This document shows, one piece after another, positions 1-59,017 of a stretch of DNA of 64,000 nt. How positions within the stretch are numbered: position 1 is the first letter of the stretch; each line of letters opens with the position of its first letter. Location of the stretch: the NCBI GenBank assembly GCA_015832175.1, contig WJXW01000005.1, positions 1,178,001 to 1,242,000 on the forward strand. The letters are read 5' to 3'. The DNA comes from Paraphaeosphaeria minitans. Lineage: Eukaryota > Ascomycota > Dothideomycetes > Pleosporales > Didymosphaeriaceae. The notes below the pieces were generated by a model, which ran no database searches, was not told where the DNA came from, and worked only from the letters and a program-made list of their open reading frames with translations. The translations under genes were made by a program, and so were the position numbers.

Positions 1-3000
1 AGTAGGGCCTCTTTGCCACGCTTATAAATAAAGAGGATAACGCGACACCCTTTAATGCTCTAAATAAAGACTAAGAAGAAATATTCTTAACTTTACTCTA
101 GGATATTACTTAGATACTTATAATAACGCTTCTTTGCATAGTAAGATCTCTACCCCCCTATAATATAGTGGGGCTAGGCCTTACTAAAAATAGCAGGACT
201 CTCCCTTTAGAACTAGTAGAGTACGCTGCTATTTTTAATAAAACTAAAGTATTTAGCCTTCTACTATACTAGGGCACGTTAGACTACTATATTTACCTAA
301 GGCGAACTCTAAGCGGCTCCCTTCTAAAACTACTTTAGGGCCTACTATATAGTATATCTAAAGATTAGCTAGTAGAACTCTAGCGCTAACTTATAAAACT
401 TATAGATAAAGGCTAGATATAAGCTAGCTCCTCTTTAGTAAGTGCTCTAGTCCTTCTAGCCCTAAAGCGTAGGGGGAAATAGCGCCTATATATTAACTAT
501 TAGGAGATTAATATAATTTCTAAGCTATATTAGTACCCCCTTCTACTTATTAAAAAGACACTACGCACTCTCTCCTAGACTACTTAGTTTATAAAAGTAG
601 ATATCTACACTACTTTCTATAAGCTATAAGTTATAGAAGAGGAAGAACACTATACTATATTTTATACTTAGTTTAGCCTTTTTAAGTAGTTAGTAGTTTT
701 ATTTAGACTAACTAGGGCACCTACTATATTCTAGCGCTATATTAATAGCGCTCTAAAAAATACCCTAGGTAATATATATATAGCTTACTTAGATAATGTC
801 CTTATCTATATAATAGGGCCCCTACGCTAACACTAGGACTATATATAATAAGTACTAGGACTTTTATAGAAAGCTAGACTATATATAGACTTAGGGAAAT
901 GTAAATTTGCGATAATAGAGGTTAGGTATCTAAAGTATTTTATTATAGTAGGTAAGGCTATTCGCCCTAATCTAGTAAAGATATAAGTAATTAATTAATA
1001 GGACGCCCCCTCTATAGTATATATAGTCTACTACTTTATTAGCTTTGCTAACTTCTATTATAACTTTCTTCCTTAATTCTTTAAGTAGGCCGCACCCCTA
1101 TATACCCTTACTAAGAAAGGGGTCCTATTTTAATAAGGCCCTAGGGAATAAGAGGCCTTTTAGGCCCTAAAGGATATATTTGTACAGGGCCCTATCCTAG
1201 CGCTCTAGGACCTAGAGCGCGACACGCTAGTAGAGGCGGACTACTTAGGTAGCGCTACTAGGGCCTACCTCTCCTAACATATTAAGGGGATTTAGTATTT
1301 TATAGCCTACTACTTTACGGCCCTAACACTAGCCTAGTAGAATTACACTATTTACAACAAATAGCTGCTTATAATTATATAGGCCCTATAAGTATAGAGA
1401 CTAGAACTAATAGGAGTAGCGCGCCCTTTTAAGATTCTAATAAACTATAAGAACCTTAAATACTTTATAAAAATCTAAGAATTAAGTAAGCGCTAGCACT
1501 AGTAATTAGAGTTACTTTTTACCTTTTACTTCTACCTCTACTACTAGCCTAGATCCTAGGTAGCTAGACTAAACGCACTAAGCTAGCGTAAGTAAGATAT
1601 AGTCTAGTAAATAAAAATAAACGCCCTACTAATAGTGCCTAGGACTATTTAGGCTACTTTAGTATAGACGCGATCTTTAATAGTGCTAGTAAAGGCCTAG
1701 ATTTTTACTAATACGTATTTATAGGCACTCTAAAACGTAGCTATAGTAGAGTCTCCCTCTTACTATATTAGGCTTAAGGCAGTGAGCTGCGGCAACTATA
1801 TAATTTTTATAATAGCTGCTACCTCCTAATAAATTAGGAACTACCTAATTAGTGTATATAGATTCCTCTTATAGTAAGGAGTCCTTTAGGTCCTAGCTTA
1901 GGAACCTTTTACTACCGCTATTATATAGCGCGTATATAAGTCTCTAGTTGTAGGCTATTTTAGGAAGAATTCTATGTTTAAGATTATTTACTGGGACTAC
2001 TACTAAGATAATATATTTAAAGATATTACCTAATTTATACATAATTACTACTGCGTAGGAGCGTATGTAGACTAGTAGAAGTAGTAAAGTCTTCTATAGC
2101 CACTTCTAATTATAAACTAGTACTAGGCGTAACTCTTAATAGATTTTATAGTAGACTTTCCCTAGACCTCTACAACAGTACTGTAATACCTACTTATAAT
2201 TACTAATAGGCTATTAAAGTATGTATAACTAGAAGCTATAACTTTTATAATAGTAGAGCACTATATAGCCTACTTCTATAATATATAGTAGTAGTTTTAT
2301 AGCTTCCCTACCTTACTAATTACAGACAGAGGCTTAGACTAGCTAAGGAAGTTCTAGACTACACTATATAAATTAATTAGAATAAAACAACTTCTTTCTA
2401 TAGTATACTATCCCTAGACTAACAGCGGTATAGAGAGGGTAAACTAGAAAATACTCTTATTCCTTTCCATTATAGTTAACTTTAAATAAACAGACTAGCT
2501 AGACTACTTTCTAGCCTACTAGCTTATGTTAAATAATAGATTATCTACTACTATAGGCCTAAGTCTAAACCTTCTACTAAATAGATATTATATTAATCTC
2601 TTTAAGAGAATCCCCTTACTAGTAGAGTCTAGCTACACCCCTACTAGAAGAGTAAAGCACTTTCTAGACTACTTTAAAAGAAGAATAGCTTTAGTCTAGA
2701 CTACTATTATATATAGATAGCAGCGCACTATAAAGGCTATAAACTACACCTACTCACCTATAGAGTAATTCTAAGTTAAAGATAAGATATAGTTCTTACT
2801 ATATAACGTAAAAACTAACTAGCTAAAGAAGAAACTTAACTAGCTTAAAGTTAAGTATACTATAATAGCTATACTATTTCTGCTTATAGTAACACTAGAC
2901 TTATCTAGTAATCTCTATAAGACTGTCTACGTTAACCTTCTTAAGTAAGCGGTAGACGATCCCCTACCTAGTTAGACTTAGGCTAACGCCTAGCTAGGCC

Positions 3001-3260
3001 TAGCCTTAGAGCTAGAAGAAGCAGACCTAAACTTATATAAATAGAAAGTAGAGGAGGTCCTACGCATTAAGAACGCCTAGGATAAATAATAATAGGCGCT
3101 AGTAAAGTAAACTAGGTAGGTATTATTAACTTAGGTACTAGTTAAAAATATTATAAACACTATAGCTCTAGACTACTTTAAGGCCGCCTAGGGGGACTAT
3201 AGGCATAATAATAGTCCTATCTAGCCTATAGGGAAGAAAACATAAACATTATAAGGAAAG
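1..3260 (+). pseudogene. Element A pol: RT, RNase H, integrase, chromodomain (inactivated)
   Basis: Remnant of the polyprotein that copies and integrates element A. Reading through TAA/TAG stops, the RT palm is at about 480-1000 with the box TRAPTIF (family TNAPATF) and the catalytic site at 786-797 reading YLDN where active enzymes have YLDD. RNase H follows near 1220-1500. The integrase core starts near 2130: the first Asp (2142-2144, in DFIVDF), the second Asp (2325-2327, in TDRG) and the Glu (2433-2435, in GIERVN) are all still coded. A chromodomain-like stretch (ALVK-TG, then PTWVP-like) lies near 3095-3205. Stops occur throughout, nearly all TAG or TAA at expected Gln/Trp positions, so no active protein can be made. 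The domain order is seen directly; family membership rests on known chromovirus architecture. Confidence 0.85.
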
Positions 3261-3401
3261 CTATAATAGGTATTTAAGAATTTATTCTCTTACTAACCTA
3301 GTAGAGGCGCTATCTATCTAAAAACTACTAAAGGCTATTAGCCCTAGGGTTATAATGCCTAAAGTAGCACTAGAGTAACACTAAATAAGAATAAAAGGGG
3401 G
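1..3401 (+). mobile_element. Element A: Ty3/gypsy chromovirus, RIP-degraded, 5' part outside window
   Basis: A decayed LTR retrotransposon whose pol order is reverse transcriptase, RNase H, integrase, chromodomain, which places it in the Ty3/gypsy chromoviruses. Gag and the 5' LTR lie before the window. The right limit is set at the purine tract AAAAGGGGGC (3393-3402). No second copy of this element is visible in the window, so its LTR cannot be defined by comparison. Confidence 0.85.
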
Positions 3402-18753: not shown

Positions 18754-19098
18754 ATGTCTTATGCCTAGTTATAACTAGAGCTTACCCTACGTTATAAGTA
18801 GTGTTAGCTTTACTTATATTATACCTAAATAACCTTCTAAGTCTAGCACTACCTATTACTATTACCTAACTAATTTTATTAACTCCTTTAGCAAAGTTAT
18901 AGTTAAGAAATACTTAACGTGTATAAAATATAACTATGTTTACAAGATTTACGTTTAGTCTAGAAAATATAGGGAATGTGTTTATTAACGTTAACGTTAT
19001 AATATACCCATTTTAGAGTCTAAGTTTAAGTATTTATTAGTAGAGAAAGAGAAATTATGTATGCAGATAAAAAAGTTAAGAGAAATATAGAAAGCTAT
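18754..19098 (+). pseudogene. Antisense zinc-cluster gene of B3, truncated
   Basis: On the plus strand, hence antisense to B3. ATG at 18754-18756 matches the ATG of the B1 antisense gene, and the frame has the same order of motifs, with one extra T causing a shift before the cluster. The first Cys of the cluster reads Tyr here (TAC at 18911-18913), the second is Cys, and the last Cys of the second pair is kept. It is followed by a Lys/Glu-rich stretch and cut by E1. Confidence 0.6.
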
Positions 19099-19310
19099 TA
19101 TTAGGAGTTAGGTATAAGCAATGTAGCTTTAGCTTTAAATGTAAAACAATAGTGGATTATATAGTAGAATATAGGATAGAGGATAGACGAATCGCTGCCG
19201 GATTACTCTATTAGCGATAGAACTATATAGCCTTAGATTAGGTAATCTCCACCTGCATCTGGCTAGCCCTTACTATTCTAGAGCCTAGCCAAGTACCTAG
19301 GGTTCTAACA
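19099..19310 (-). repeat. 3' LTR of E1, 212 bp
   Basis: On the minus strand it starts TGTTAGAACC and ends CTCCTAATA. The adjoining plus-strand TTATCCCCCTTTAA (19311-19324) is the reversed purine tract. Confidence 0.9.
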
Positions 19311-19910
19311 TTATCCCCCTTTAAAGGATCTCTTGTCCTAAGAGTAAAGTATTTAGTAAGTCCCTTTACTATTTATTACTATTAGTCTTTTATTAGCACT
19401 AACTAGCTCTACTAGTACCTAGTAGTTAGCGTAGGCCCTTAACTGTCCCTACTTCTTAAACTTGGCAGTAAGCCTAATATTAGAGGATCTAGAGTGTTCT
19501 ACTATTTCTAAAATAGCTTAATTATAGATAATAAGGAGGATTACGTTCTAGTTTATTCCTATTTATACTATTTTGTTCTAAATAGTGCCTAAATTATTAT
19601 AATAGATTTATGCGGCACTTCCGCGCTCCTTATATTAGATTATAACTATTTCCGCCTAAGTAAGGTAAGATGTTGCTATCTACGCTAGTGTGGCACGTAA
19701 CTACGCTAGTAACTAGCGTCTTAGCGGTAGGGTAGTTATCCTATTACCTAGGGCTCTTAGACCTATTCTCTACTCATATTTTCTTATAGTAAGTAACATT
19801 ATGCGGCCCTTAGATTAGTGCATTCTAGCGCAACTTAGTACTAACTATACTAAAGAGTTGTATATTGTATCTTTTTAGTATATATTTAACACTTTTTGTA
19901 CATCTTTAAT

Positions 19911-19996
19911 AATAATTAACACTAATTAGCACTAATAGGCAATAATTAGCATTAGTTAGCACTAATTAGCACAAATTAGTACTAATTATCGCAAAT
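19911..19996. repeat. AATTAGCACT-type minisatellite
   Basis: About eight imperfect copies of a 10-bp unit (AATTAGCACT and variants) just upstream of the start of the E1 antisense gene. The same array is at about 55048-55135 in E2. Single related units recur in intron 1 and exon 2 of the antisense gene. Confidence 0.65.
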
Positions 19997-20243
19997 TGTA
20001 ATAGCTCTACCTAAGAAGCGCTCTCTTTGCGACTATTGTATTAATGCGATTAAGACTAATAGACTTTATACTAAAATACTATATATTAGATGCATTAGAA
20101 TTATAGCAGAGCGTAGTGTTCTAGAATTAGACACTATATGCGTAAGAGATCTAAATAATAACAAATAGGAATTATTACAATTTAAAGGTTACCACTATAA
20201 AGAGTGTAGTAATTATTTAGATAACGATACCTTATACTTTATA

Positions 20244-20308
20244 GTAAGTTACTTTCTAGCGTTATTTAGCGCTATTTAGCACTATTAGGTACTAATAGGC
20301 GCATATAG
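20244..20308 (+). other. Intron 1 of the E1 antisense gene (65 nt)
   Basis: GTAAGT donor, TACTAAT branch-like site at 20290-20296, acceptor ATATAG. Phase 0. The length and position are the same in E2 (55381-55445). Confidence 0.6.
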
Positions 20309-20930
20309 CCTCTATTTAAGGTACTTAGGCTCCTTAAGACCCTTAAAGTCTATCTTAGGTCTATCTTAAGAATAGACGTCTAAGCCTTAGTCGCGGCGTC
20401 TAAGGAAGCTAATACTACAGCCTAAGTGTCCTATAAAGCTACTAAAAAGGAATATAAAGTCTAGTGTAAGGACTTAAAGTACATTACAGCTCTAGCTAAT
20501 CTTACTAAAGCCTAATTATAACTTATAGCTAAACCTATCGCCCTTTTATTATAGAATAAGGAGAACGCGCTCCTTAAGGTGTAAAAGCTAAAGATAAAGG
20601 CTAATAAGAGAGTAATAGCTATAGCTATACGTATTATAGTAGAGCTAAATAAGTATAGGTACTATTTAGTATAATTTAGCACAAATTAGCGCTAATTAGT
20701 ATATAGGAACTTATGTAGGTACACTAAAAAGTTCTAGGCCTATAATAGGGCCTTTATGCTTAAAGATAAGTGCGCTAACTTTAGTATACTTTTATATAGT
20801 TATTCTCGCTCTAGAAAGGCGCTTAAGGCTAAGACTTATTATATTAAGCGCGAAATAGAGTTAGAAAATAAGGCAATCTCCCTATATAAGGCTAAAGCTC
20901 TAGAATAGATACACTATAGTACTATTTAGA

Positions 20931-21009
20931 GTAAGTTAGCAGTAACTAGCGTAATAGGTTCCTAGCTATCCTTACGCGACTATCCTAACTAGCCTTAATA
21001 TCTTTTTAG
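20931..21009 (+). other. Intron 2 of the E1 antisense gene (79 nt)
   Basis: GTAAGT donor, CCTAACT branch-like site, acceptor TTTTTAG. Phase 1, and joining restores the downstream frame. E2 has GCAAGT at the donor and the same length (56068-56146). Confidence 0.6.
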
Positions 21010-21959
21010 TAGAAACTACTACAGCTAACGCTAAAGCCTAACTAGAAGCCGCTTATAGGGACGCTAAAGTTATATCTATGCTAGCTATTCCTACTTTAGC
21101 GCGTTATAGCGTAAGGAGGCGTAACCTAGACTTATCTACTATTTCTAAACCCCTAGCGGACTTCCTACCTATTAATAGTACTAATATAGAGAAGTTAGCG
21201 TACTTTAATTACTGTTTTATAACTTCTTTCTATACTAAGGGCCTAGCCACTTAAAGCAGCTCTAATAAGAGTTATTAGAATTAATTATTTAAATAAAGAC
21301 GTAATATAGCACTACACAGTCTAAATAGATATAATATAGCACAGTATAGTATAAATTAGCGTAAATAGGAATATAATAGCAGAATTTAGCGATAATAGTA
21401 ATAATCTAGCGTTAGTTCATTTTAAATAGCACATTTGCCTAGCTTTTTAGGCTATTACCTACAAATAGGCGACATTTTAACATAGGTTCCTATTTTAGTC
21501 AGTTATTAACCCTGTTTTAGGCAATAAGAGGCTTTCTGCCTTATAATAATATAATTTAATCTAGATTATGCCAAATTGTATTAATATGTACTAGATTATA
21601 CTAGAATCGCAATATTACTAATATTATCCTTATCCTTTGCTAATTTTAAAGGGTGTCGCATATACTAATTAGTATTCCTATACCTATTAAAACACTCTAC
21701 CTAACTAGCTAACTATCCACTAAACTTCCTATAGGAGACACGTGGGGTTTTTAAAAGGATAAAAGGGTCTATAGTATCTAATTATAAGTTAATATTTGTA
21801 TATCGTACTAAATTAGGACATTTTATGCTAGGTAGGTCTAACTTAAACTAACATTTTTGTATAAGTTTTTAGCGTTTGCTAGTTTTCCCCTTTAAGGGAG
21901 GTTACCTACAACCTCTCTTCTTTGCCTCTAGAAGTGTAGTTATTAACCTTCTTAAGAAT

Positions 21960-24487
21960 ATCTTAAGCTTTTTCTAGAACTCTTTAAGCGCATTTCCGCT
22001 AATTAATATAGTAGGTTTCTAAGAGTTTTCTTCTAGATTATATTTACTCTATTTAATAAGGTATTCCTATTATCTTAACTTATTTTGTTATCTATTAACA
22101 ATATAGTCTACTTTATACACATTATTACTATATTAGCGCAATGTGTCTTTAATTAGTAGTTATTAGTAGGGTAGTTTCCTACGTAGTTCGTATAGTTTTA
22201 GTAGGGAAGGATAGAACACTAGATAAACTTTACCTAATTTAGATAGGTTTACTTAGTAGGCTGTGGGTAGAGAGCTAATACACTTATCTACTACTCTAGG
22301 GCCTAGGAATTTCTAGTCTATTTTCTTATTTAGTTGTATAGACTTTAGATTCCTACTTAAAACCTATACTTTATTACCTTTATTAAGTTGTAAAGGGGTT
22401 CTCTTCTTATTAGAGATAGATTTTTAGTACTTCTATACTACCTACAGCTTCTTTCTTACATTTACGCGTATTTCTATTAATCTTAACGCTATTTAGTAGC
22501 CCTTTAGGCTTTCCCCGCCACCTAGCAGCATATTAGGCTAAGTTAGGTTAGAGGGATTATATCTAAAGCACACTTAGTATAGTGTGTACCCTATTACTAA
22601 ATGTTTACTATTATTATACGTATATTCTACTAGTGAGATCTATATTACCTAATTGTCTTACTCTAGGGAGTAGAAGATTCGCAAGTATTATTCTAGTGTT
22701 TAGTTCTAGCGTTCTATTTGCCTATTAGTCTAAGAATGAAAAGCTAAGGTCAAAACCCTCCTTAAATTTAGGTAATAATAGAAAGTATTCTAGTGTTTTA
22801 CTTTTATTACTGGTCCTTTGTCTAAGAGAATACTCTCTAGATTACTATAAAGTCTAATAACCTTATAAATCTAAGCCTAAGCTAGGTTAGTGCCATCCTA
22901 ATCTATCTAGGCTAGTACATAATAAGTTATCTTAGAAAATTAATTAACAATTACTAAGATAGCGTTATATGTTAGTCCTAAGAAGCGACTTAGGGGTAGA
23001 TTAGTAATAAAGTCTATTATCACGTGCTGCTATAGATAATCTAGGATAGAAAGCTACTATAAAAGACTATAAGGCTTATGTCTTTTATAGGTTGCCTATT
23101 AGCACTGCTTATAGTTATAAATATAGTTAGTAACCTCTTTATTTATACTAGTCTAATAAAACTTCTATTAAACGCGCTTAAGTGTCTAAGTTACACTAAA
23201 ATGTCTTAAGAGAGGGCTATTATAGCAGCTCTTAATAGCTTTTATACACTTTAAGGGAAACTTAAGCCACACTAGGCTAGTTAGTCCTAAGCTACAGCCA
23301 CTTAGACTAGATTACGCTAACTTGTTAACCTCATTATCTAATAAGTTTAAATCTTTAGATTTAATAGCCTCTTAGTCCTTTAGGGAGAGGTAGTTACTAA
23401 GACTACCTTTATTTAACCTCTTAAAGTAATAGGTATCTCTATAGGGCCTATTGCCCTATCTTATCTAACTTCTAGAGGGGTTAGTCTCTTAATAGGGCTT
23501 ATTACCCTATCCTATCTAGTTCCTAGAATAGGTAGATATAGTAGAGACTAGAGCGTATTCGCTTTACCTTTCTAATAATAGATTATCTAAAGGCTTAACA
23601 AAGGCTTTATTATTCTTCTACTTAGTATCCTAGGTGCTAAGCATGTAGTCTAGGCGCCTTAATAGGCTGTCTACTAGATTTATTAATCCTACCCTATAAG
23701 TTATAACAAAGTTATACTTACTTAGGGTAAGGTATAACTAGATGTAATATAATATAAGCGTCTTAGTCTCTATAAACTATTAAAGGTTATAATAATCTAT
23801 TAAGACCTTAAAGTATTAACTTTAAAGGTATTAACGCTGGTGTTTAACTAACTTAATAATAGCGAGGAGTTCCTTATTATAAGTATTATAGTAGTACTGC
23901 GTAGTACTTAATTTCCTTAAGAAGAAGTTAATTAGTTGCTATAAGCCTAGCTTATTATCTTTAGGCACAAGTTGGCTATAAATAGCACTAATTACTCTAC
24001 CTAAGGCGTTAGTCTTAAGACGTGTCTATTGTCTATACTTAAAGTGCACTAGTATAGGCACTTTAAAGAATACGTCTTTTAACGTCTAGAAAGCTTTAGT
24101 GCCTTCTAGCCTAATATCTAAGGCTATACTCTCCTCCCTTTGCATTACTAGCCCTTGCCTAGCGCTATCTAGCGCTTTCTTAGTTAAACTAGTAAGAGGT
24201 AGCGCTATTTAGGAGAAATTAGCAATAAACTATTTATAATAGCTTATAAAGCTAATAAAGACGTGTATATTACGTATATAGATTAGTTTTGGTCATAATT
24301 GTATCGCATTAACCTAATCTAGGTTAATTATAAGCCCTTCTAGAGAAATAACAAACCTAAGGTACTCTATAGTAGTAGTGTGCTATTTACACTTCTTTAG
24401 ATTAATAAAGAGCTTTGCTTAGCGCAGCCTCTCTAGAATCTCCCTTATATAGGCCTTATGTTCTTTTAGTGTATTAGAGAAGATTAA
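21960..24487 (-). pseudogene. E1 pol, 3' part: RT end, RNase H, integrase, chromodomain
   Basis: Minus-strand continuation of pol after J1. The RT thumb (NTLKEHKAYIREIL-like) lies next to 24480 and RNase H at about 23600-24000. The integrase HHCC region is at about 23060-23200; the core opens with IIDFITNLPLSR, its first Asp at 23012-23014. The integrase C-terminal domain lies near 22200-22420 (KFLGPRVV) and a chromodomain at about 21960-22110 (YLIKWSKY-like, then NSWEPT-like). Stops are TAA/TAG throughout. Downstream on this strand is the 3' region that carries the antisense gene. Confidence 0.82.
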
Positions 24488-24799
24488 TGTCCGTACAGTT
24501 TATCGTACAAATAGCACTGAGTGAAATAGGGGCCTGCCTACCTATAGGGACCCGCACAAGGACCCACTACTTAGGTCAGCGCTAAGAGGCAGAGACTTTA
24601 TAAGGCCTTGCCTACCTATAAGGACCTGCACAAGGACCCCCTACTTAGGTTAGCGCTAAGAGGCAGAGACTTTATAAAGCCCTTAGTGCCCCTTTGTACG
24701 ATAGACCAGACGTAATTAATTGAACCTACTTCTCACCCTTTGCACAATAGTATACTATTAACCCTCAAATGCTTAATTATAGATTAAGCCAAACTAACA
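24488..24799 (+). repeat. Left LTR of J1, 312 bp
   Basis: TGTCCGTACAG to CAAACTAACA. It contains two tandem copies of a 74-bp unit that starts at about 24531 and 24604. Confidence 0.9.
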
Positions 24800-25099
24800 C
24801 TAATTAGTGGTTAATTCTAAATTAACTACAAACTAGCAAGGTCTAAAGACAGAGCGCCCTATAAGCTGGATACGCAGGCTCTATATTATTACCTTTACTA
24901 GAGATTAAATTTCAGATTATACAATAAGCAGAAACAAAGCGCACACATCTATAAAGAGTTACACGATCTAGTCTAAGCTATTCTATAGAAAAGAAAGGAG
25001 ATAGTGAGCACATTCACAACCCTAAAAAACACGTCGCACAATTAAACCAGCAACAACCAAACGCAGACACGTCGCACAACCAAGAAAGACAATAATAAC

Positions 25100-26900
25100 A
25101 TGGCCTTAAGACTAGGAGACTTCTTAGAAGAACTATAACCTAAGGACGTTACGTAATAATTAATACTGCCTCCTTAGCAAAAAGACAAAGCCAAAGCAAT
25201 ATAGCTTTAATAAGTGGAGGAATTAATAAACATTAAGGCTATTACCTTAAGAGGAGAGATCGCACGAAAGTACTAGGTGGATAGAGTAGATTTACACAGC
25301 CACCTACCCCCTTCTCTAAAATAGCTAAACACTTATATAGTATACATAATTGCGCAATATCGCGCGAGCAGCCTTAAAAGTAAAGAGGTAATCTCTTCTT
25401 TTACTAAAGATTTTAACAACTAGAAGGAGAGAACCTTTAATAAGATTAGTTGTGTAGTAAGAAGAGAGCTTATTACTTTTCTTACAAAAGAAGGCTTTAT
25501 CGCTACTAATTCTATAATAAAAAACACCTATATAAAGAAACTCTTTAAACTGTTATAGCTTAACTATAAGCTACAGACCCTTTACACAATAACTCTACAA
25601 CTGTAACCTAAACTACTTCGCACAATTCTAATAATATAACCTACACTATCTATAGGCAATGCATATACACATAGAGCACAGCTGGGGCCTATCCCTATAT
25701 ATACGAGAACAGAGACACTATATATAGAGCCACACTAGTAGCAGTAGCCTAAAATCTAGACTACTTTTGCCCGACAAACCACATTGTATAAAGAGACTAG
25801 ACACTCCTAGTCTCCTTAATAACTAGGAGATTATACTTATATCTAGCCAGACAAGATCATTCTCTTTTAGAAGGCTTAGAGTAAAGAGAATAACTACACT
25901 AGTAGGCCGTACAACATCCTAGTAGACAAGGTAAAAGTCTTTAGAGAACTATACTATAGGCTAGGTATACTATAGGACTAGTATATAAACATCTTCCTAG
26001 GAATCCTTTCTAATCATGCGAGTACCTACTACTTATACAATATTAGACTAGGACTTCTATAGGATAAATTATATAATAGACTAAACAGGCACTTTAACAC
26101 TAGTGTTAATTATAATTAGTACTAGATAGACTAGACCACTCTTACCTTTAAACACTATAAAAGGGATAATCTAGCTACTACATCGCATAAGGCCCTAGAA
26201 GTAATAATTAATAAGCTTACCTTAGCCTAAAGGGCTCTTGGACAAGGCTTTAGTAGTAAACTATAACTACACACCACTATTATACAAGCATGCCGCGGCC
26301 ATCTTAACCTTAAATAAGCTATGTTTAACCCTAAAAACATAGTAGAAGGCTTACTTAGTAACCTTCGTGCGTTACTCTAAGTTACTAAAAATAGGAAGAA
26401 GTTACAGTTCCTCTAAGACAGTAAAGAGGTGTACTACACTAATTAACAATACAACAATCCTAATTACACAAGAGGATCTAGCCCCTCTAGAGGTAGATTA
26501 ACCTTTAGACTAAAAGGAAGAGGTAACTTTAGAAGTTTAAGCTCTCGCACGAAGTAGAAATACTTTATGTGCTATAAAGAAGGATACTAGTCTACTAACT
26601 ATCTACTAAGGGATACCTAGTAAGCTAGAAGGCAATACATATTGTTGTACGCTAACTTCTATAAACATAAACCCTCTGCTATAGATGTACAAGTATACAT
26701 CCTTAACTTTAAAGGAGAGCTAGAGGAAGAAGACTATCGCACAAAGGAGGAGGAAGATAAATAAGACTAATAGAGTAATAAAGAAGAAGCACAGAAGGCT
26801 ACCTTATACCTCACTTCTACTACATACCTTTATTACACGACTAGGAGCGATCCTTCTATACCTGCTTACTAAGACCTAGCGCTAAGCATCGCATTACTTA
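25100..26900 (+). pseudogene. J1 gag-like protein (inactivated)
   Basis: ATG at 25100 begins MALRLGDFLEEL. One frame continues for about 590 codons through TAA/TAG stops. The N-terminal 230 residues look like a soluble helical domain. A second part (about 25850-26460) follows, then a basic segment rich in Arg and Gly (SPSRGRLTFRLKGRGNFRS) and a knuckle-like site reading YFMCYKEGY (about 26560-26600) where Cys-x2-Cys and a later Cys/His would be expected. The C-terminal part is acidic (GELEEEDY). This layout (capsid, basic linker, knuckle, tail) is typical of gag. The family is uncertain, gypsy or copia. Confidence 0.55.
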
Positions 26901-27067
26901 ACACCCCACCTTCTGTTTACGCCCAGAACACATGCCTAGAAAGAGCCTTATCGCGCAATGCGACTCTACTACCGTGCGAAGGGGTAGGGTAAGAACTAAG
27001 CAGAGAAGGATAGGAAAGGGAAAGCGTACGATAGACATGAGCCATCGCACAAAAGAAAAGTTGCCAG

Positions 27068-27379
27068 TGTCTATACAGTTTATCGTACAAATAGCACTAA
27101 GTAAAATAGGGGCCTGCCTACCTATAGGGACCCGCACAAGGACCCACTACTTAGGTCAGCGCTAAGAGGCAGAGACTTTATAAGGCCTTACCTACCTATA
27201 AAGACCTACATAAGGACCCCCTGCTTAGGTCAGCGCTAAGAGGCAGAGACTTCATAAAGCCCTCAGTGCCCCTTTGTACGATAGACCAGACGTAATTAAT
27301 TAAACCTACTTCTCACCCTTTGCACAATAGTATACTATCAACCCTCAAATGCTTAATTGCAGATTGAGCCAAACTAATA
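27068..27379 (+). repeat. Right LTR of J1, 312 bp
   Basis: TGTCTATACAG to CAAACTAATA. Collinear with the left LTR over the full length, with two copies of the 74-bp unit. Confidence 0.9.
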
Positions 27380-28560
27380 ATTAATATGTTATCTAGGTAT
27401 ATAATATAGGTGATATTAATTAGGCCAGTTAGTATCTAGGTAATTAGGCCCTAGAACTAGGCTAGTGTATTACTAAGGCTAAAGGGCATTATAGTATCCT
27501 TAAAATAGCTATATCTTATACAGAAAGTAGTTTTCTACTTATCTCCTTCTATAATATAAACTTAATTATACGCTTCTTTTAAATTAAGGTTTATAAATGT
27601 CTTGGCTTATTTTAGTTAGTTTAGAGATTTAGTAATTAGTAGGAGAGTTCTACGATTTTTAATTATAATTTTATTAAGACTTTAATAATCTATATATAGG
27701 CGTAAGGTGTTATTTTTCTTTTTTGTAAAGAGCATAGGGGCACTAGCTAGGGATTTTAAATAGCAAATCTACCCTCTAGCTAAATACTTCTTAACGTACT
27801 TCCTTAATGTCTCTAACTTAACTACAAAGAGGTTATATATAGGGTAATACAGAGGTACGCCACCTTCTACTAAATTAATCTGCAAATTGTGGTTAGTATA
27901 AGCAATAAGGTCCTTATAGTCCTTATTTAAGGCTACATCTATAAGATTAGAGTAATAGGATAGTATCTCTACTATTCTATTCCTATCTACGCTAAATAGT
28001 GCTAGTATATCTATATTAGATACTATGCACGTATACATAGAGATATAAGGGTCTTATATAGTATAATTAAACTACTTAGCGTCTTCTACTATAATTTTTT
28101 AGTAGACTAGTACTTCTTTAGTGTCGCGTCTCTAAAATAGTACACGTTAGGTTACGACGTTTACCTTTAGGTTCACTTAATTAAACTAAGGTAAACCTAA
28201 AAAAATATTATAACCTATAAGGTTAGTAACTACATAGGGTACCTTCTATTATTACTTTCGCCTACGTAAGTCCTTAAGTTCTATTAATAGCACTATTGTG
28301 CTATAAACCTTAATATTAGACCTATTTACTACCTAGGCGGGCAACCCTATTAATAGTTTAATATTAACTTTTTACTCTTTCGCCTTTTGTAGTAAAAGAA
28401 GGTTTAATGCTAAGCTAAAGTAGAATTTACTAAGGCGTTAATAGTATCCTTTTTAACTCTAGCTAAGAGAATAAGCATTCCCCTTAGCTAGATATAAAGC
28501 TAGTTAGAAGGAGATTTTAACTATCTTACTTCTAGAACTTTATTAAGGTGCCTTACAACT
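27380..28560 (-). pseudogene. E1 pol, 5' part: protease and RT
   Basis: Minus strand. A stretch of 89 codons without a stop (27769-28038) covers the RT N-terminus and reads, for example, PLYYPIYNLFVVKLETLRKY and KYLARG, the usual gypsy entry to the fingers domain. The catalytic box at 27388-27399 reads YLDN. Protease would lie at about 28050-28560, but I cannot point to its active site with confidence. J1 separates this part from the rest of pol. Confidence 0.8.
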
Positions 28561-28599
28561 ATTAATATATAAGTAGTAAGGGTAGCTACTACTCTTTCT

Positions 28600-29800
28600 G
28601 TCCTCTACCTTTTCCCGCACCCTGTTCCCTAATATATATAGACTAGGCATCTTAGATTCTAGGTACAGCTAGCTTATTTAGAGTAGGGTAATTAGGTTTT
28701 AAGTAGCCTAGCTTTTTGTAATACTAGTAAAAAGTGTTAGTTACTAGTAGTCTAGTGCTAAATAGCGCTAACTTAAGACTTTTAGTGCTATTACCCTACT
28801 TTCTTAGTTTCTTAACTACCTTTTAGGGTTTTTTATCCCCTTTAGAATCTAGTTACTCTAGGCGTTAATGTTCTACACCCTTTAAGTATAGGTTAGGAGC
28901 TAAAGATCCTTAATTTAGCTTATCTATCTAATAAATAATTAAAGCCTAAAGTTTAATATTTATAACTATAACTTAAAGCCCTAAAGGGATTACTTATAGC
29001 TACTATTAGATAGAAGGTAGAAGTAATTCTATATATTCTAGCTTTTATTATTTAAGGTTTATTATTTCTAGCTCCTTCTAGTAACTTTATAGATAATTTA
29101 ACAGCTCTAATAGGCTCTAATTTAGTCTCTATTAGCATCTCTTAAGCTAATTATACGGTAACTAGCGCCTTTTTTTAAAAAATCCTAAAGCTTCTAGCAT
29201 CTTGTCCCTTAGGTTAGCCTAAGTAGGTAACTAGTTAGGGTCTGTTAATAACTAGACTTAAACTTTAGTTCTCTATACTATATAGTAGATATCTAATATA
29301 TACTAGAGAGCGTAGGTAACTTTAAGGTCCTTATCTACAAAGTAGTCCTTTAAGGACTAGAAATAGAGCTTATAGTTATCTCTCTAATAATTAAACTCCT
29401 ATTAGTCCCTTTAGGTAAATTTATGCAGCTGCTTTTACAAAAGTTATAATAAAGATACTTTAGAGGGATTCTGCGTTTTAGTAGAATTTCTTATAGGCTT
29501 ATATAGGGCTTAAGTGTCTTCTGCCTCCTATTATTATTTTATCTAGTTAATTCTATTAAGTTTAGCTATATTCCTTCTCTTTTTAAGCTATTATTTAGCT
29601 TTCTTAAGCTATTTAAAAATAGTGCTAGAAGAATTATTTTTAATATCTAGAGGTGCCCTAACTTAGCCCTCTCTAGCGCGTCTAGGCGCAGACTAACCCT
29701 AATATATAGGAAGAGGAGTACACTAGTCCTCTAGCTTACTTAGTATAGGAGATAGGCTTAAATATAAGAATTCCCCTCCTATAGGCTCCTAAGTATCCTA
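28600..29800 (-). pseudogene. E1 gag with knuckle remnant
   Basis: Minus strand. A zinc-knuckle remnant at about 28684-28748 reads YYKKLGYLKPNY, where C-x2-C-x4-H-x4-C would have Cys and His at the Tyr positions; all four ligands have been changed in the RIP direction (TG to TA, CA to TA). Upstream lies a long, stop-rich capsid region without clear landmarks. The start codon was not determined. Confidence 0.6.
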
Positions 29801-29912
29801 GTATTAGATGTAAGAGCGCGTAGACCGCAAAGTGTTTACTATTATAGCCTAGTTATTATAAGTAGAAGCCTTTTAAAACTAAACTGCTTATATATATAGT
29901 AAGTAATTTTAA

Positions 29913-30124
29913 TATTAGGAGTTAGGCATGAGCAATGTAGCTTCAGCTTTAGATATAAAACAATAGTGGATTATATAGTAGGATATAGGATAGAGGATAG
30001 ACAAATCGCTGCCAGATTACTCTATTAGCGATAGAACTATATAGCCTTGGATTAGGTGATCTCCACCTGTATCCGGCTGGCCCTTACTATCCTAGAGCCC
30101 AGCCAGGTACCCAGGGTTCTAACA
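29913..30124 (-). repeat. 5' LTR of E1, 212 bp
   Basis: Same length as the left LTR and ends on GGTTCTAACA, followed by GCTAT. It is less RIP-changed than the left one (for example CCGGCTGGCCC). Confidence 0.9.
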
Positions 30125-54216: not shown

Positions 54217-54228
54217 ATATAATATGTA

Positions 54229-54447
54229 TGTTAGGAGTTAGGCACGAGTAATGTAGCTTTAGCTTTAGATGTGAAACAATGGTGGATTGTATAGTAGAAT
54301 ATAGGATAGAGGATAGAGGATAGATAAATCGCTGCTAGATTACTTTGTTAGTAATAGAACTATATAGCCTTAGATTAAGTAATCTCCACCTGCATCTAGC
54401 TAGCCCTTACTATTCTAGAGCCTAGCTAGGTATCTAGAGTTCTAATA
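54229..54447 (-). repeat. 3' LTR of E2, 219 bp
   Basis: Plus strand TGTTAGGAG to TTCTAATA, followed by the reversed purine tract TTATCCCCC. Confidence 0.88.
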
Positions 54448-55137
54448 TTATCCCCCTTTAAAGGATCTCTTGTCCTAAGAGTAAAGTATTTAGTAAGTCC
54501 CTTTACTATTTATTGCTATTAGTTCTTTATTAGCACTAACTAGCTCTACTAGCACCTAGTAGTTAGTATAGGCCTTTAACTATCTTTACTTCTTAAACTT
54601 AGTAGTAAGCCTAATATTAGAGGATTTAAAAGGTTCTACTGTTTCTAAGATAGCTTAATTATAGATAATAAGGAGGATTACGTCCTAGTTTATTCCTATT
54701 TATACTATTTTATTCTAGATAATACCTAAATTGTTATAATAAATTTATGCGGCGCTTAGGCGCCCCTTATATTAGATTATAATTATTTCCGCCTAAGTAA
54801 AGTAAGATATTACTATCCACGCTAGTGTAGCACGTGACTACACTAGTAACTAGCGTCTTAGCGGTAGGGTGGTTATCCTATTACCTAGGGCTCTTAGACC
54901 TATTCTCTACTCATATTTTCTTGTAGTAAGTAATATTATGCGGCCTTTAGATTAGCGTATTCTGGCGCAACTTGGCACTAACTATACTAAAGAGTCGCAC
55001 GTTGTACCTTTTTAGTATATATTTAACACTTTTTGTACATCTTTAATAATAATTAACACTAATTAGCACTAACAGGCAGTAATTAGTATTAGTTAGCACT
55101 TATTAGTATAAATTAGTACTAATTATTATAAATTATA

Positions 55138-56391
55138 ATAGCTCTACCTAAGAAGCGCTCTTTTCGCGACTATTATATTAATGCGATTAAGACTAATAGA
55201 CTTTGTACTAAAATACTATATATTAAATGTATTAGAATTATAGTAGAGCGTAGTGTTCTAGAATTAGACACTATATGCGTAATAGACCTAAATAATAATG
55301 AATAGGAATTGTTGCAATTTAAAAGTTACTACTATAAAGAGTATAGTAATTATTTAAATAAGGGCACTTTATGCTTCGCAGTAAGTTACTTTCTAGCGTT
55401 ATTTAGCGCTATTTAGCACTATTAAGTACTAATAGGCGTATATAGCCTCTATTTAAGATACTTAGGCTCCTTAAGACCTTTAAAGTCTATCTTAGGTCTA
55501 TCCTAGGAATAGATGTCTAAGCCTTAGTTACAGCGTCTAAGGAAGCTAATACTACAGCCTAAGTGTCCTATAAAGCTGCTAAAGAGGAATATAAAGTCTA
55601 GTATAAGGACCTAAAGTATATTACAGCTCTAGCTAATCTTGCTAAAGGCTAATTGCGACTTATAGCTAAACCTATCGCCTTTTTATTATAGAATAAAGAG
55701 AACGCGCTCCTTAAGGTATAGAAGCTAAAGATAGAGGCTAATAAAAAGGTAATAGCTATAGCTGCACATATTATAGTAAAGCTAAATAAGTATAAGTACT
55801 ATTTAGTACAATTTAGTACAAATTAGCGCTAATTAGTATATAGGGACTTATGTAGGTACACTAAGAAGTTCTAGGCCTATAATAGGGCCTTTATGCTTAA
55901 AGATAAGTGCGCTAACTTTAGTATACTTTTATATAGTTATTCTCGCTCTAGAAAGGCGCTTAAAACTAAGACTTATCGCATTAAGCGCGAAATAGAGTTA
56001 AAAGATAAAGTAATCTCCCTATATAAAACTAAGGCTCTAGTATAAATATACTATAGTACTATTTAGAGCAAGTTAGCACTAACTAGCGTAATAAGTTCCT
56101 AGCTATCCTTACGCAACTGTCCTAACTAGCCTTAATATCTTTTTAGTAGAAACTACCGTAGCTAACGCTAAAGCCTAACTAGAAGCCGCTTATAGGGACG
56201 CTAAGGTTATGTCTACACTAGCTACTTTTACTTTAGCGTATTATAGCGTAAGGAGGCGCAACCTAGACTTATCTACTATTTCTAAGCCCCTAGCGGACTT
56301 CCTACCTATTAATAGTACTAATATAGAGAAGTTGGCGTACTTTAATTACCGTTTTATAACTTCTTTCTATACTAAAGGACTAGCGACTTAA
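55138..56391 (+). pseudogene. Antisense three-exon gene of E2
   Basis: Exon 1 55138-55380, intron 55381-55445, exon 2 55446-56067, intron 56068-56146, exon 3 56147-56391: lengths 243, 65, 622, 79 and 245, each identical to E1. The start reads ATA in both copies. Intron 1 keeps GTAAGT; intron 2 has GCAAGT. The last exon holds the 60-codon open stretch starting MSTLATFTLAYYSV and ending KGLAT. At one exon 2 site E1 has TAA where E2 still has CAA (GTA CAA TTT), direct proof that a stop was a Gln codon. Cys10 and Cys13 of E1 are Arg and Tyr here, while Cys23 and Cys79 are kept here and lost in E1. Role unknown; see the E1 entry. Confidence 0.7.
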
Positions 56392-57059
56392 AGTAGCTCT
56401 AACAAGAGTTATTAGAATTAATTATTTAAATAAGGACGTAATACAGCACTACACAGCCTAAATGAGTATAATATAGTAGAGTATAGTATAAATTAGCGTA
56501 AATAGGAACATAATAGCAGAATTTAGCAACAATAGTAATAATCTAGCGTTAGTTAATTTTAAATAGCATATTTGCCCAGCTTTTTAGGCTATTACCCACA
56601 AATGGGTAACATTTTAACATAAGTTCCTATTTTAGTCAGTTATTAACCCTATTTTAGGCAATAAGAGGCTTTCTGCCTCACAATAATATAATTTAATCTA
56701 GATTATGCTAAATTGTACTAATATGTACTAGATTGTGCTAGAATCGCAATATTACTAATATTATCCTTGTCCTTTACTAATTTTAAAGGGTGTTATATAT
56801 ACTAATTAGTATTCCTGTACCTATTAAAACACCCTACCTAACTAGCTAACTATCCACTAAACTCCCTGTGGGAGACACGTGGGGTTTTTAAAAGGATAAA
56901 AGGGTCTATAGTATTTAATTATAAGTTAATGTTCGCATATTATACTAAATTAGGACATTTTGTGCTAGGTAGGTAGGTCTAACTTAAACTAATATTTTTG
57001 TATAGGTTCTTAGCGTTCGCTAGTTTTCCCCTTTAAGGGAGGTTGCCTATAACCTCTCT

Positions 57060-57640
57060 TCTTTGTCTTTAGAAGTGTAGTTATTAACCTTCTTAAGGAT
57101 ATTTTAAGCTTTTTCTAGAACTCTTTAAGCGCATTTCTACTAATTAATATAGTAGGTTCCTAAGAGTTTTCTTCTAGATTATATCTACTCTATTTAATAA
57201 GGTATTCCTATTATCCTAACTTATTTTATTATCTATTAACAATATAGTCTACTTTATATATATTATTGCTATATTAGCGTAATGTGTCTTTAATTAGCAG
57301 TTATTAGTAGGGTAGTTTCCTACGCAGTTTGTATAGTTCTAGTAAGGAAGGATAGAATACTAGATAAACCTTACCTAATTTAGGTAGGTTTACTTAGTAG
57401 GCTGTAGGTAGAGAGCTAATACACTTATCTACTACTCTAGGGCCTAGGAATTTCTAGTCTATCTTCTTATTTAGTCGTGCAGACTTTAGATTCCTACTTA
57501 AAACCTATACCTTGTTACCTTTGTTAAGTTGCAAAGGGGTTCTCTTCTTATTAGAGATAGATTTTTGGTACTTCTGTACTACCTACAGCTTCTTTCTTAC
57601 ATTTGCGCATATTTCCATTAATCTTAACGCCGGTGGTCTA
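57060..57640 (-). pseudogene. E2 integrase C-terminus and chromodomain remnant
   Basis: Minus strand, matches E1 21960-22490: integrase C-terminal domain and chromodomain. At 57630 it is fused to gag-region sequence of E. The last part on the plus strand (about 57631-57730) is markedly GC-richer (GATGGCGCCGACTTGGG) than the equal stretch of E1, so it escaped RIP. A plus-strand open stretch there is only a by-product of low stop density. Confidence 0.7.
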
Positions 57641-58798
57641 GTGCCAGATGGCGCCGACTTGGGACTCTTAGTGCCATTACCCCGCTTTCTTAGTCTCTTA
57701 ACTACCTTTCGGGGTTTTTCGTCCCCCCTAGAATCTAGTTACTCTAGGCGTTAATGTTCCACACCCTTTAAGTATAAGTTAGGAGCTAAGGATCCTTAAT
57801 TTAGCTTATCTATCTAATAAATAATTAAAGCCTAAAGTTTAACATCTATAACTATAACTTAGAGCCCTAAAAGGATTGCTTATAGCTACTATTAGATAGA
57901 AAGTAGGAGTAATCCTATATATTCTAGCTTTTATTATTTAAGGTTTATTATTCCTAGCTCCTCCTAGTAACTTTGTAGATAATTTAATAGCTCTAATAGG
58001 CTCTAATTTAGTCTTTATTAGTATCTTTTAAGCTAATTATATACTAACTAGCGCCTTTCTTTAAGAAATTCTAAAGCTTCTAGTATCTTATCTTTTAGGT
58101 TAGCCTAAGTAAGTAACTAGTTAAGGTCTATTAATAACTAGGCTTAAACTTTAGTTCTCTATACTATATAGTAGACATCTAATATATACTAGAGGGCGTA
58201 GGTAACTTTAAAGTCCTTATCTATAAAGTAGTCCTTTAAGGACTAGAAATAGAGCTTATAGTTATTTCTCTAATAATTAAACTCTTATTAGTCCTTTTAA
58301 GTATATTTATGCGGCTACTTTTATAAAGATTATAATAAAGATACTTTAGGGGGATCTTATATCTTAGTAAGATCTTTTATAGGCTTATATAGGGCTTAAG
58401 TGTCTCTTACTTTCTATTATTATCTTATCTAGGTAATTTTATTAAGTTTAGCTATATTCTTTCTCTTTTTAAGCTATTATTTAGCTTTCTTAAGCTATTT
58501 AAGGATAGTGCTAGAAGAATTATCTTTAATATTTAAAGTTGTCCTAACTTAGCTCTCTCTAGCGCGTTTAGGTGTAGACTAACCTTAATATATAAGAAGA
58601 AGAGTATACTAGTCCTCTAGCTTACTTAGTATAAGAGATAGGCTTAAATATAAAAATTCCTCTCCTATAGGCTCCTAAGTGTCCTAGTATTAGGTATAAG
58701 AGCGTGTAGACTGTAAAATGTCTACTATTATAGTCTAGTTATTATAAGTAGAAGCCTTTTAAAACTAAACTACTTGTATATATAGTAAGTAATTTAAA
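57641..58798 (-). pseudogene. E2 gag remnant without knuckle
   Basis: Minus strand, collinear with about 28755-29912 of E1. The deletion removed the zinc knuckle (E1 28684-28748). What is left is the capsid region, closed by TAA/TAG, and the leader. Confidence 0.6.
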
Positions 58799-59017
58799 TA
58801 TTAGAAGTTAGGTACAAGTAATGTAGCTTTAGCTTTAGATATAAAATAATAGTGGATTGTATAGTAGGATGTAGGATAGAGGATAGAGGATAGACAAATC
58901 ACTACTAGATTACTCTGTTAGCGATAAAACTATATAGCCTTAGATTAGGTGATCTCCACCTGCATCCAGCTAGCCCTTACCATCCCAGAGCCCAGCCAGG
59001 TATCCAGGGTTCTGACA
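58799..59017 (-). repeat. 5' LTR of E2, 219 bp
   Basis: Plus strand TATTAGAAG to GGTTCTGACA. The right part is little changed (CATCCCAGAGCCCAGCCAGG). Confidence 0.88.

Follow-up and report, generated by a model that had tools for sequence, protein, structure and literature searches.

Results

An LTR retrotransposon family in Paraphaeosphaeria minitans

The window analyzed here is a 64,000-nt stretch of P. minitans contig WJXW01000005.1, and it holds two copies, E1 and E2, of one LTR retrotransposon family (Table 1). In E1, RT-RNase H lies ahead of the integrase between LTRs, the arrangement of Ty3/gypsy elements, and the two LTRs are 91.6% identical to each other. Four of the five computed broken pieces of E1 were submitted to the domain search and two of these four matched; PF17917 was found in the profile search of broken pieces with an E value of 1.7e-13. 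The chromodomain candidate covered the full PF00385 model but, at 20.0 bits, stayed under the Pfam cut-off of 25.1, in a stop-ridden 64-aa sub-piece that was picked by eye, and a 350-aa piece around it gave no match at E <= 0.01. A genome scan returned 40 matches (40 of 43 candidates scored, E1 and the fragment L043 counted), 28 of them full length, so the initial annotation, which spoke of conservation in two copies, had undercounted the family. Frame-breaking indels in the antisense gene described below were looked for, and 24 of the 28 full-length copies aligned to E1 without a gap.

All 28 full-length copies were RIPped. The TpA/ApT ratio was 2.1 in the E1 stretch vs 1.0 in L043, a lightly mutated fragment, and the (CpA+TpG)/(ApC+GpT) ratio was 0.25 vs 1.3. 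Among 39 copies, 431 columns contained transitions only vs 71 that contained a transversion. The family thus shows depletion of CpA/TpG, an excess of TpA, and transitions among copies, as RIP-mutated repeats do.

Table 1. Positions of the element, its domains, the antisense gene, and the 10-nt register within the window
Feature	Position	Strand	Remarks
E1, Ty3/gypsy chromovirus-type LTR retrotransposon with nested insert	19096..30124	-	LTRs, RNase H, H2C2 integrase, weak chromodomain matches
3' LTR of E1	19096..19310	-	215 nt
Tail block, single 10.00-nt register, 172 periods	19881..21600		Fourier peak, composition by column
5' flank of antisense gene, decamer array	19881..20000	+	
Antisense gene, exon 1, 81 codons, Cys-rich	20001..20243	+	
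Intron 1, 65 nt, decamer array containing TACTAAT and TATAG	20244..20308	+	
Exon 2a, 114 codons + 2 nt, predicted helical (low confidence)	20309..20652	+	
Intron M, 54 nt, decamer array	20653..20706	+	
Exon 2b	20707..20930	+	register best in third-position class
Intron 2, 79 nt	20931..21009	+	lag-10 self-match 0.30, no array
Exon 3, stop codon included	21010..21254	+	
Chromodomain PF00385, candidate	21968..22117	-	E 0.00067, below Pfam cut-off
Integrase zinc-binding domain PF17921 (H2C2)	23096..23242	-	E 3.1e-06
RNase H domain PF17919	23804..24100	-	E 3e-15 on broken piece, X at stops
Nested insert from another element, in E1	24489..27379		missing in three other copies
5' LTR of E1	29910..30124	-	215 nt
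E2	54228..59017	-	without the part corresponding to E1 22490-28746
Antisense gene in E2	55138..56391	+	91.9% identity to E1, gapless

A putative four-exon gene antisense to the element

On the strand opposite to E1, between the chromodomain candidate and the 3' LTR, the sequence supports a spliced protein-coding gene. This location had been given in the initial annotation and is supported, although the chromodomain match that marks one side of it is weak. The three exons of 369 codons proposed there do join in one frame in E1 (20001-20243, 20309-20930, and 21010-21254), but a further intron, intron M, makes the gene one of four exons and 351 codons. The length of intron M is a multiple of 3, and its removal preserves the frame and eliminates three stops. 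The introns of 65 and 79 nt were borne out for E1 with their donors, branch-like sites, and acceptors, and the exon and intron lengths of E2 equal those of E1, as its gapless alignment shows.

The splice sites were compared across the copies. Intron 1 had the donor GTAAGT in 32 of 33 copies and the acceptor ATATAG in 34 of 34, and the public P. minitans gene model P0001 uses the identical junction. The donors of intron M were GTATAG (22 copies), GTATAA (10), and ATATAG (1; n = 33); the branch-like motif GCGCTAATTAG was present in 31 of 33 copies, as was the acceptor AG. At the intron 2 donor, 25 of the 33 copies read GTAAGT, 7 read GCAAGT, and a single one reads GCACGT (GC donors in 8/33 altogether), and E2 itself has GCAAGT, so the description of both donors as GTAAGT applies to E1 but not to E2. 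The stop codon of exon 3 was TAA in 31/31 copies. The putative start codon position reads ATA in all 31 covering copies, ATG being the presumed start. Exon 1 contains an in-frame TAG that even lightly mutated L043 shares, and TAG or TAA stands there in 34 of 34 covering copies; a 27-nt intron ending at this TAG was rejected because of its shortness. The proposal that introns survive in an antisense gene since the RNA of the element carries them reversed is sound, and the copies retain their introns.

Evidence for coding in the antisense frame

The three-exon join in E1 contains 15 inner stops, and the other two plus-strand frames contain 37 and 67 stops in all. Across the copies, 10 codons of the three-exon frame (the terminal one included) are stops in every copy, compared with 15-39 in the other five frames; with these 10 remaining, stop counts were judged too weak to serve as the sole argument for coding. 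The four-exon gene has 11-13 inner stops per full copy (28 copies), comprising 6 TAA and 6 TAG in E1 and 5 TAA and 6 TAG in E2. Inner stops are therefore TAA or TAG only, as annotated, and the absence of TGA is uninformative because RIP converts TGA to TAA. The site at which E2 keeps CAA where E1 has TAA falls inside intron M and so says nothing about coding.

The lightly mutated fragment was more informative. Exon 2a of L043 is open across 114 codons, with 8 stops in each of the other plus frames and 1, 10, and 4 in the minus frames, and the frequencies of G at codon positions 1, 2, and 3 in L043 are 0.39, 0.10, and 0.31. The excess of third-position changes expected of a coding frame was found between L063 and L043, where position 3 accounted for 18 of the 31 differences (p 0.004), in a comparison that covers 38 codons of two fragments. 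The antisense frame exceeds chance, and we read it as coding because the L043 frame is open, its composition is coding-like, third-position changes are in excess, and a 10-nt register, presented below, supports it exon by exon (exon 1 weakly).

A search of the antisense protein against 5.8 billion proteins, which reached only proteins that share exact words and have a similar length, found two P. minitans gene models, P0001 at the L043 locus and P0002 at the L063 locus, and no relative beyond P. minitans. One protein query that gave no matches could not reach P0001, whose length is too different. A scan of viral contigs with P0001 and a PDB sequence search with the antisense protein gave no match, and in Pfam nothing exceeded the cut-off, the weak hits being PF13012 (E 0.059) and PF20335 (E 0.16). 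TRP28 (PF04195) gave no match at E <= 5 with queries that were mostly degraded. These searches ran on degraded sequence with X in place of stops, which reduced their sensitivity. The predicted structure of P0001 is all-helical and poor (pLDDT 46). The suggestion of a captured cargo gene found no backing, since the protein searches revealed neither a host nor a foreign relative.

A single-phase 10-nt register in the tail block

The tail block carries a register of exactly 10.00 nt. On a grid of 9.0-11.5, the Fourier peak at 10.00 had a power of 16.25 vs a median of 0.65, the composition-by-column z was 46.6, and period 10 was the strongest of 13 periods tested (none a multiple of 3) in the 64 kb. 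Nucleosomal DNA usually has a period of about 10.2 nt, and the value found here is shorter. Three segments, the 5' flank, intron 1, and intron M, carry the register almost perfectly and in one phase, and their decamer arrays end at the exon borders. The lag-10 self-match was 0.67 in the 5' flank, 0.59 in intron M, and 0.27-0.28 in the exons. For exon 2a alone, Fourier power was highest at 10.74 instead of 10.00, and in exon 1 the register is weak, with phase 1 rather than 0 as its best phase.

The purine/pyrimidine (37.0) and A/T-G/C (35.0) components of the tail are about equal. A/T-rich and G/C-rich steps alternate, with WW maxima at register 4.4-4.7 and SS maxima at 9.0-9.7 (of 10) in introns, exons, and flank alike; this is the antiphase of about 10 bp known from rotational nucleosome positioning, and it is nearly automatic for any 10-nt alternation. 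The register profile approaches dyad symmetry (0.66-0.74), but comparison with reordered columns gave no significance (p 0.07-0.15).

The register concentrates at silent codon positions

When synonymous codons were permuted with the protein held fixed, the register had a z of 6.6 in E1 and 6.0 in E2; for L043 exon 2a it was 6.0 with the introns of L043 as reference and 4.6 with the E1 arrays. RIP is not the cause of the register, because the lightly mutated L043 exon 2a carries it. A template-free exon test gave z 8.1 at period 10, and seven other periods stayed between -0.9 and 0.4; in 94 control blocks, period 10 had a mean of -0.06 (sd 0.98, max 2.4) and other periods reached up to 3.7. The gene exons of E2 gave a register z of 8.0.

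Site classes were then scored with the 5' flank array alone as template. Third codon positions scored 0.101 (z 6.2), first positions 0.012 (z 0.7), and second positions 0.025 (z 1.6); introns 1 and M scored 0.22-0.25, and intron 2 (0.13) and the 3' flank (0.11) lay barely above third positions. In four of four exons the best register class was the third position of the gene model, though this class shifts from exon to exon (2, 2, 0, 1). The frame of each exon is therefore independently backed.

These results bear on the view that there is no gene at all and that the frame arose by chance across RIPped, repeat-rich noncoding DNA. The 11-13 stops of every full copy, the exon 1 TAG shared by L043, the missing ATG in 31 copies, the lack of a homolog found in other species, and a minus-strand frame of L043 exon 2a with just a single stop would all fit such a view. 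It does not account for the open L043 frame with its coding composition, for the third-position excess, for a third-position register that follows a changing frame through four exons, or for arrays that halt at exon borders, and we consider it very unlikely.

The register extends weakly into gag-pol

Gag-pol, on the strand opposite to the antisense gene, carries a weak register. In blocks from three other copies, 17 of 17 were positive at period 10 (1.1 to 7.7), and at one block position in the three copies period 11 slightly exceeded period 10. Two of eight blocks had p 0.2-0.3, the phase jumps along gag-pol, and third positions led in three of five blocks. At the gag end there was an A/T vs G/C signal only (6.8; purine/pyrimidine 1.0). 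The nested insert, an internal control, had a period-10 z of 0.6 (purine/pyrimidine alone 2.7), and z was 1.5 in the 3' LTR, 2.3 in the 5' LTR, and 2.4 in 19311-19880. Outside E, 221 overlapping windows gave a period-10 mean z of 0.01 and a maximum of 5.5.

The register might be a relic, the tail having formerly been a decamer tandem array from which the antisense gene was born. The one-phase, near-perfect arrays of the 5' flank, intron 1, and intron M, a decamer that includes motifs resembling branch and acceptor sites, and the scores of intron 2 and the 3' flank, which exceed third positions as little as neutral decay would have it, agree with this origin. However, the lag-10 self-match of the exons is at background, and gag-pol, whose family is old and whose origin in such an array is excluded, carries a weaker register too; mainly for the latter reason array decay is ranked behind and appears unlikely.

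A register read on single-stranded nucleic acid was also considered, as the 10-nt footprint of a coat protein on the element RNA, a situation akin to the paramyxovirus rule of six. A period of exactly 10.00 in a single phase over 1.7 kb, its presence element-wide, and a tail purine/pyrimidine component as strong as that of A/T-G/C are what a coat would leave, yet the phase jumps within gag-pol, the low values of the LTRs and of 19311-19880, and the gag end, with A/T vs G/C alone, are not, and this reading seems unlikely.

Finally, a mutational bias of helical period, through nucleosome-dependent mutation or RIP targeting, could have produced the register without selection. Polymorphism and divergence are described as tracking nucleosomes (PMC4081404), and helical periodicity is reported in the homology sensing of RIP (PMC4858203). 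Against such a bias, the register is present in lightly mutated L043, it is missing on average from the window outside E and from the nested insert, and no other RIPped family in the window has it; moreover, the tail holds one phase, and linkers would reset that of nucleosomes. We give this explanation little probability.

Discussion

We lean toward an explanation that combines a four-exon antisense gene in a Ty3/gypsy chromovirus-type element with a 10-nt constraint on the DNA that acts through uniform bending on chromatin state. The gene product would probably be a nuclear protein whose N-terminus is Cys-rich and zinc-binding-like and much of whose length is helical, and it may act on the expression or chromatin of E itself. 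A second constraint would lie on the DNA of the whole element, most strongly in the tail, and alternate A/T-rich and G/C-rich steps each 10 nt; the 5' flank, intron 1, and intron M show this alternation most, and exons show it chiefly at third positions, where the code is free. Uniform bending of this kind could fix nucleosomes rotationally or bind an oligomeric protein once per turn, and it might set the chromatin state for expression of the antisense gene, perhaps of the element. The ten-base rhythm may thus be a DNA-bending or chromatin-packing signal laid over genes. The sequence itself shows the structure of the gene, the register, its place at third positions, and its alternation of A/T with G/C; we infer that the antisense gene is expressed and spliced, that its protein has such a role, and that nucleosomes are the readers of the register. 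A more far-reaching version, which we hold only tentatively, is that a 10-nt-phased DNA code runs through the whole retrotransposon and both of its coding strands, with the synonymous codons of gag-pol and of the antisense gene chosen for one phased bending track; its readers might be nucleosomes or the Cys-rich helical protein encoded antisense.

Plant retrotransposons and retroviruses are already known to have antisense genes next to the 3' LTR. Retroviral HBZ is spliced, and no sequence relation between it and the E antisense gene is expected. HBZ and other retroviral antisense genes, as described in PMC11963269, exemplify an antisense retroelement gene for a nuclear regulator, a role that the E counterpart may share. 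According to the same source, plant Retand/Tat elements have antisense ORFs (TRP28) between pol and the 3' LTR, the position of the antisense ORF in E, and about half of them contain tandem repeat arrays; a DNA-binding regulatory role has been proposed (PMC11963269). Retand is a plant non-chromovirus lineage, whereas E has a weak chromodomain match, which speaks against the Tat lineage. Furthermore, unlike Retand as presented there, the E antisense gene lacks a TRP28 match and has arrays in register with third codon positions, and it is multi-exon, whereas the available text of PMC11963269 mentions no introns for Retand. In the portion of the literature searched on this point, we found no report of an antisense gene in a fungal chromovirus.

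Decamer repeats of the TATAAACGCC type form strong nucleosomes, and the periodic An/Tn clusters (PATCs) of Caenorhabditis elegans have a period of about 10 bp. The former are linked to nucleosome formation in a reference title in PMC8530345; they share with E a 10-bp unit that is half A/T and half G/C, but they are short selected repeats, whereas the E register spans a mobile element with genes. PATCs occur as periodic A/T stretches within introns, in genes that have to be expressed in spite of silencing (PMC7725773); they are described there as noncoding, whereas the alternation of E occupies introns, flank, and synonymous sites too, and the full copies of E are RIPped. In two yeasts, genome-wide evidence was given for mechanical DNA information layered over coding sequence (PMC4896621). 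That effect is genome-wide, whereas in E it concerns one family and one phase held for 172 periods, with z 46.6 in 1.7 kb.

More striking than the antisense gene itself is a phase-exact register that overlaps genes on opposite strands, chiefly at silent positions. Because it concentrates at third positions, such a structural register can expose reading frames in RIP-ruined DNA. If nucleosomes read the register, E would be an extreme instance, found in nature, of one sequence carrying both a genetic and a mechanical code, and its compactness would suit it to asking whether selection shapes DNA mechanics. If a protein of the element reads it, this would add a novel means by which mobile elements mark their own DNA.

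Structure of the antisense gene and its element

The genome that holds the window comprises 47.45 Mb in 30 contigs. In the window, heavy mutation of repeats (RIP) extended as far as about 59.5 kb (TpA/ApT 1.92). E1, a minus-strand chromovirus-type retrotransposon, contained a stretch that was absent from three other copies of E and was therefore taken as a nested insert; these three copies do have sequence missing in E2, the second copy in the window. The ends of the nested element were repeated at 94.5%, and related pieces were located at 12-15 kb of the window. Pfam matches were obtained in two of four scanned broken minus-strand E1 pieces (RNase H plus a weak RT end; zinc-binding domain of the integrase), and a sub-piece of a third one matched a chromodomain below Pfam's cut-off. 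Plant Retand elements are described, in the relevant passages of PMC11963269, with antisense ORFs and tandem arrays between pol and the 3' LTR. E has a similar layout, but it was not classed as a Retand member because the TRP28 domain is absent and a chromodomain matches weakly.

Coordinates of the features in the window and on contigs (C) of this genome (G000)
Feature	Location	Strand	Remark
E1 LTR, start	29910-30124	minus	215 nt
E1 LTR, end	19096-19310	minus	215 nt
Gag end	29101-29909
Nested insert in E1	24489-27379
Repeated ends of nested element	24488-24797, 27068-27377		310 nt
Chromodomain match	21968-22117	minus
Tail	19881-21600
5' flank array	19881-20000
Exon 1 TAG	20166-20168	plus
Exon 2a	20309-20652	plus
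Intron M	20653-20706	plus	54 nt
L043, tail fragment	C1:3342707-3343269		563 nt
PMIN02_009699	C1:3342659-3343084
L063, exon 1 match	C2:1569505-1569678
L063, diverged exon 1 copy	C2:1569505-1570113		L063 4506-5114
Two antisense-gene copies (L009)	C3:724160-727655		2.2 kb apart
Further array-pattern matches	C3:795632, C6:797673

The three-exon frame that the initial annotation had placed opposite E1 was present. Its exon 2 kept the proposed frame but was not a single exon, as a further intron (intron M) lies inside it; the donor of this intron is GTAT in 32/33 copies, its branch-like site CTAAT and its acceptor AG (31/33). Intron M contains a cluster of three stops, and its length means that the frame is kept across it. 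With intron M removed, the mean number of stops, including the terminal one, fell from 15.5 to 12.9 (22 ungapped copies with both ends present), and the four-exon frame of 351 codons had 11-13 inner stops per copy (28 full copies). The proposed start was ATA in 31/31 copies, and the last donor was GC in 8/33. Exon 1 has repeated Cys, with one C-x2-C pair and then more Cys in L063, suggesting a zinc-binding role; the exon-2 part was predicted, with low confidence, to be helical. On contig C3, two full copies of the gene lay in the same orientation, the LTR of the second directly after the tail of the first.

Fragments of the gene elsewhere in the genome and evidence for coding

L043, a fragment with light mutation and normal-GC surroundings, retains intron 1 and ends within the decamer array of intron M. 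Among 527 compared positions, it had bases seen in 0/39 E copies at 39 sites (23 C versus T, 15 G versus A, 1 other), and CpA and TpG were still present (index 1.3 versus 0.25 in E1). The NCBI model at this locus, hypothetical protein PMIN02_009699 [Paraphaeosphaeria minitans], departs from the L043 reading only by a 15-residue gap and in its initial residues. L063, a second and older fragment (annotated PMIN06_000949, P0002), holds a diverged exon 1 copy, not RIPped and in normal-GC DNA, that turns into unrelated sequence short of the exon 1 end.

In L043, exon 2a was open for 114 codons, with 8 stops in each other plus frame and 1, 10 and 4 in the minus frames; since one of the minus frames also shows just a single stop, an open frame does not by itself prove coding. 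Codon positions in L043 differed from each other in coding fashion. The third-position excess, whose lack the initial annotation would have held against coding, was found between L063 and L043: over 38 codons, third positions held 18 of the 31 differences (p 0.004 against one third), and 10 codons had only a silent change versus 12 otherwise (the stop-bearing one included). The exon 1 TAG was also present in L043 and was TAG in 31 and TAA in 3 of the 34 covering copies, with a sense codon in L063; the public gene model sidesteps it, using that TAG as the acceptor of a splice from flanking DNA. Either the E lineage had a nonsense codon when spreading, or exon 1 is spliced differently.

A ten-nucleotide register in the tail

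Decamer arrays (approximately TTTGGCGCTA, as in the lightly mutated copy) occupied the 5' flank, intron 1 and intron M in one common phase. Lag-10 self-match was 0.59-0.67 in the arrays; exons gave 0.27-0.28 and intron 2 gave 0.30. The array pattern matched 71 times across the genome (reversed control, 0), nearly always, by eye, at E copies; the two matches beyond the listed copies are probably E fragments. The Fourier peak of the tail was 10.00 (power 16.25, median 0.65, grid 9.0-11.5) and that of E2 10.00 (power 15.12), and period 10 in the E tails was the strongest periodic signal in the whole window among 13 periods, none a multiple of three. Of the ten possible phases, phase 0 scored highest in all three introns, in the 3' flank and in every exon but exon 1, which favored phase 1. 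Besides the 10.00 register, exon 2a alone had its Fourier maximum at 10.74 nt, close to the 10.5-10.8 nt that correspond to one helical repeat in coiled coils.

The register lies mainly at silent codon positions

With the protein fixed by synonymous codon permutation, the exons matched the array phase at z 6.6 (E1) and 6.0 (E2), which are copies of one sequence and hence not independent; the nine remaining phase shifts gave z -4.2 to 2.7, the last at the neighboring phase. A template-free test gave z 8.1 and 8.0 at period 10 and at most 1.1 at seven other periods. The 94 control blocks, taken from elsewhere in the window, had a mean of -0.06 at period 10 (sd 0.98, max 2.4, 1/94 with p <0.01) and reached 3.7 at other periods. 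When only the 5' flank array served for scoring, the register was 0.012, 0.025 and 0.101 at codon positions 1, 2 and 3, 0.22-0.25 in introns 1 and M, 0.13 in intron 2 and 0.11 in the 3' flank; a reference made up of flank plus introns gave z 2.5, 1.8 and 7.8 for the three positions. The best register-carrying class was the model's third position in 4/4 exons, weakly in exon 1 (z 1.9 versus 1.4 and 0.2). The register thus gives the frame of the antisense gene independently.

RIP was rejected as the maker of the register, because the register was present in L043 (exon 2a, synonymous permutation, z 6.0 with the L043 introns as template and 4.6 with the E1 arrays) and visible in purine/pyrimidine terms, which RIP leaves unchanged (z 5.0 in E1, 4.4 in L043).

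The register across the element

At period 10, gag-pol had a mean z of 2.83 (29 overlapping windows), versus 0.01 outside E (221 windows, max 5.5). Within E1, z was 2.7-6.7 in six gag-pol blocks and 0.6 in the nested insert (purine/pyrimidine component 2.7); the stretch 19311-19880 scored 2.4 and the two LTRs scored 1.5 and 2.3. The gag end had the strongest gag-pol register and, unlike the tail, carried it in A/T versus G/C (z 6.8) and not in purine/pyrimidine terms (z 1.0). In three other copies, period 10 was positive in 17/17 gag-pol blocks (1.1-7.7), although in block 2551-3400 of each copy period 11 gave 1.8-2.0 versus 1.1-1.7. Phase differed from block to block. Template-free synonymous permutation in gag-pol gave p 0.038, 0.000, 0.022, 0.054, 0.006, 0.304, 0.224 and 0.002; with a template at best phase, p was <=0.05 in 8/12 overlapping blocks, and third positions were ahead in 3/5 blocks. 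The register is element-wide but uneven.

In the tail, introns 1 and M ranked above intron 2, the 3' flank and third positions, which were about equal, with hardly any register at first and second positions. This order is what selection acting on a property of the DNA would produce. Neutral decay of an old array would yield the same order in the tail, but cannot account for the register in gag-pol.

Possible meaning of the register

A/T dinucleotides peaked at register 4.4-4.7 and G/C dinucleotides at register 9.0-9.7, alike in introns, exons and the 3' flank. The column profile resembled its own reverse complement (0.66-0.74) more than shuffled bases did (p 0.012-0.028), but the resemblance was not significant against reordered columns (p 0.074-0.150) and so does not establish strand symmetry. 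In nucleosomal DNA, the minor groove faces the histones at A/T and the major groove at G/C (PMC8530345). Such a code laid over coding sequence is argued for yeasts in PMC4896621, and in C. elegans, intronic clusters of periodic A/T shield transgenes from silencing (PMC7725773). Full-text searches of an open-licence library, judged from their listings, brought up no description of a 10-nt register that runs through the synonymous sites of a whole element. The register may interplay with RIP, since RIP senses homology with a helical periodicity of 11-12 bp, 10 in one setting, by the relevant part of PMC4858203. In the favored account, the phasing of the element DNA would serve bending and would be strongest near the antisense gene. 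This phase may fix the rotational setting of nucleosomes, or may offer an oligomeric protein one contact at each turn of the helix, a role for which the antisense protein is a candidate.
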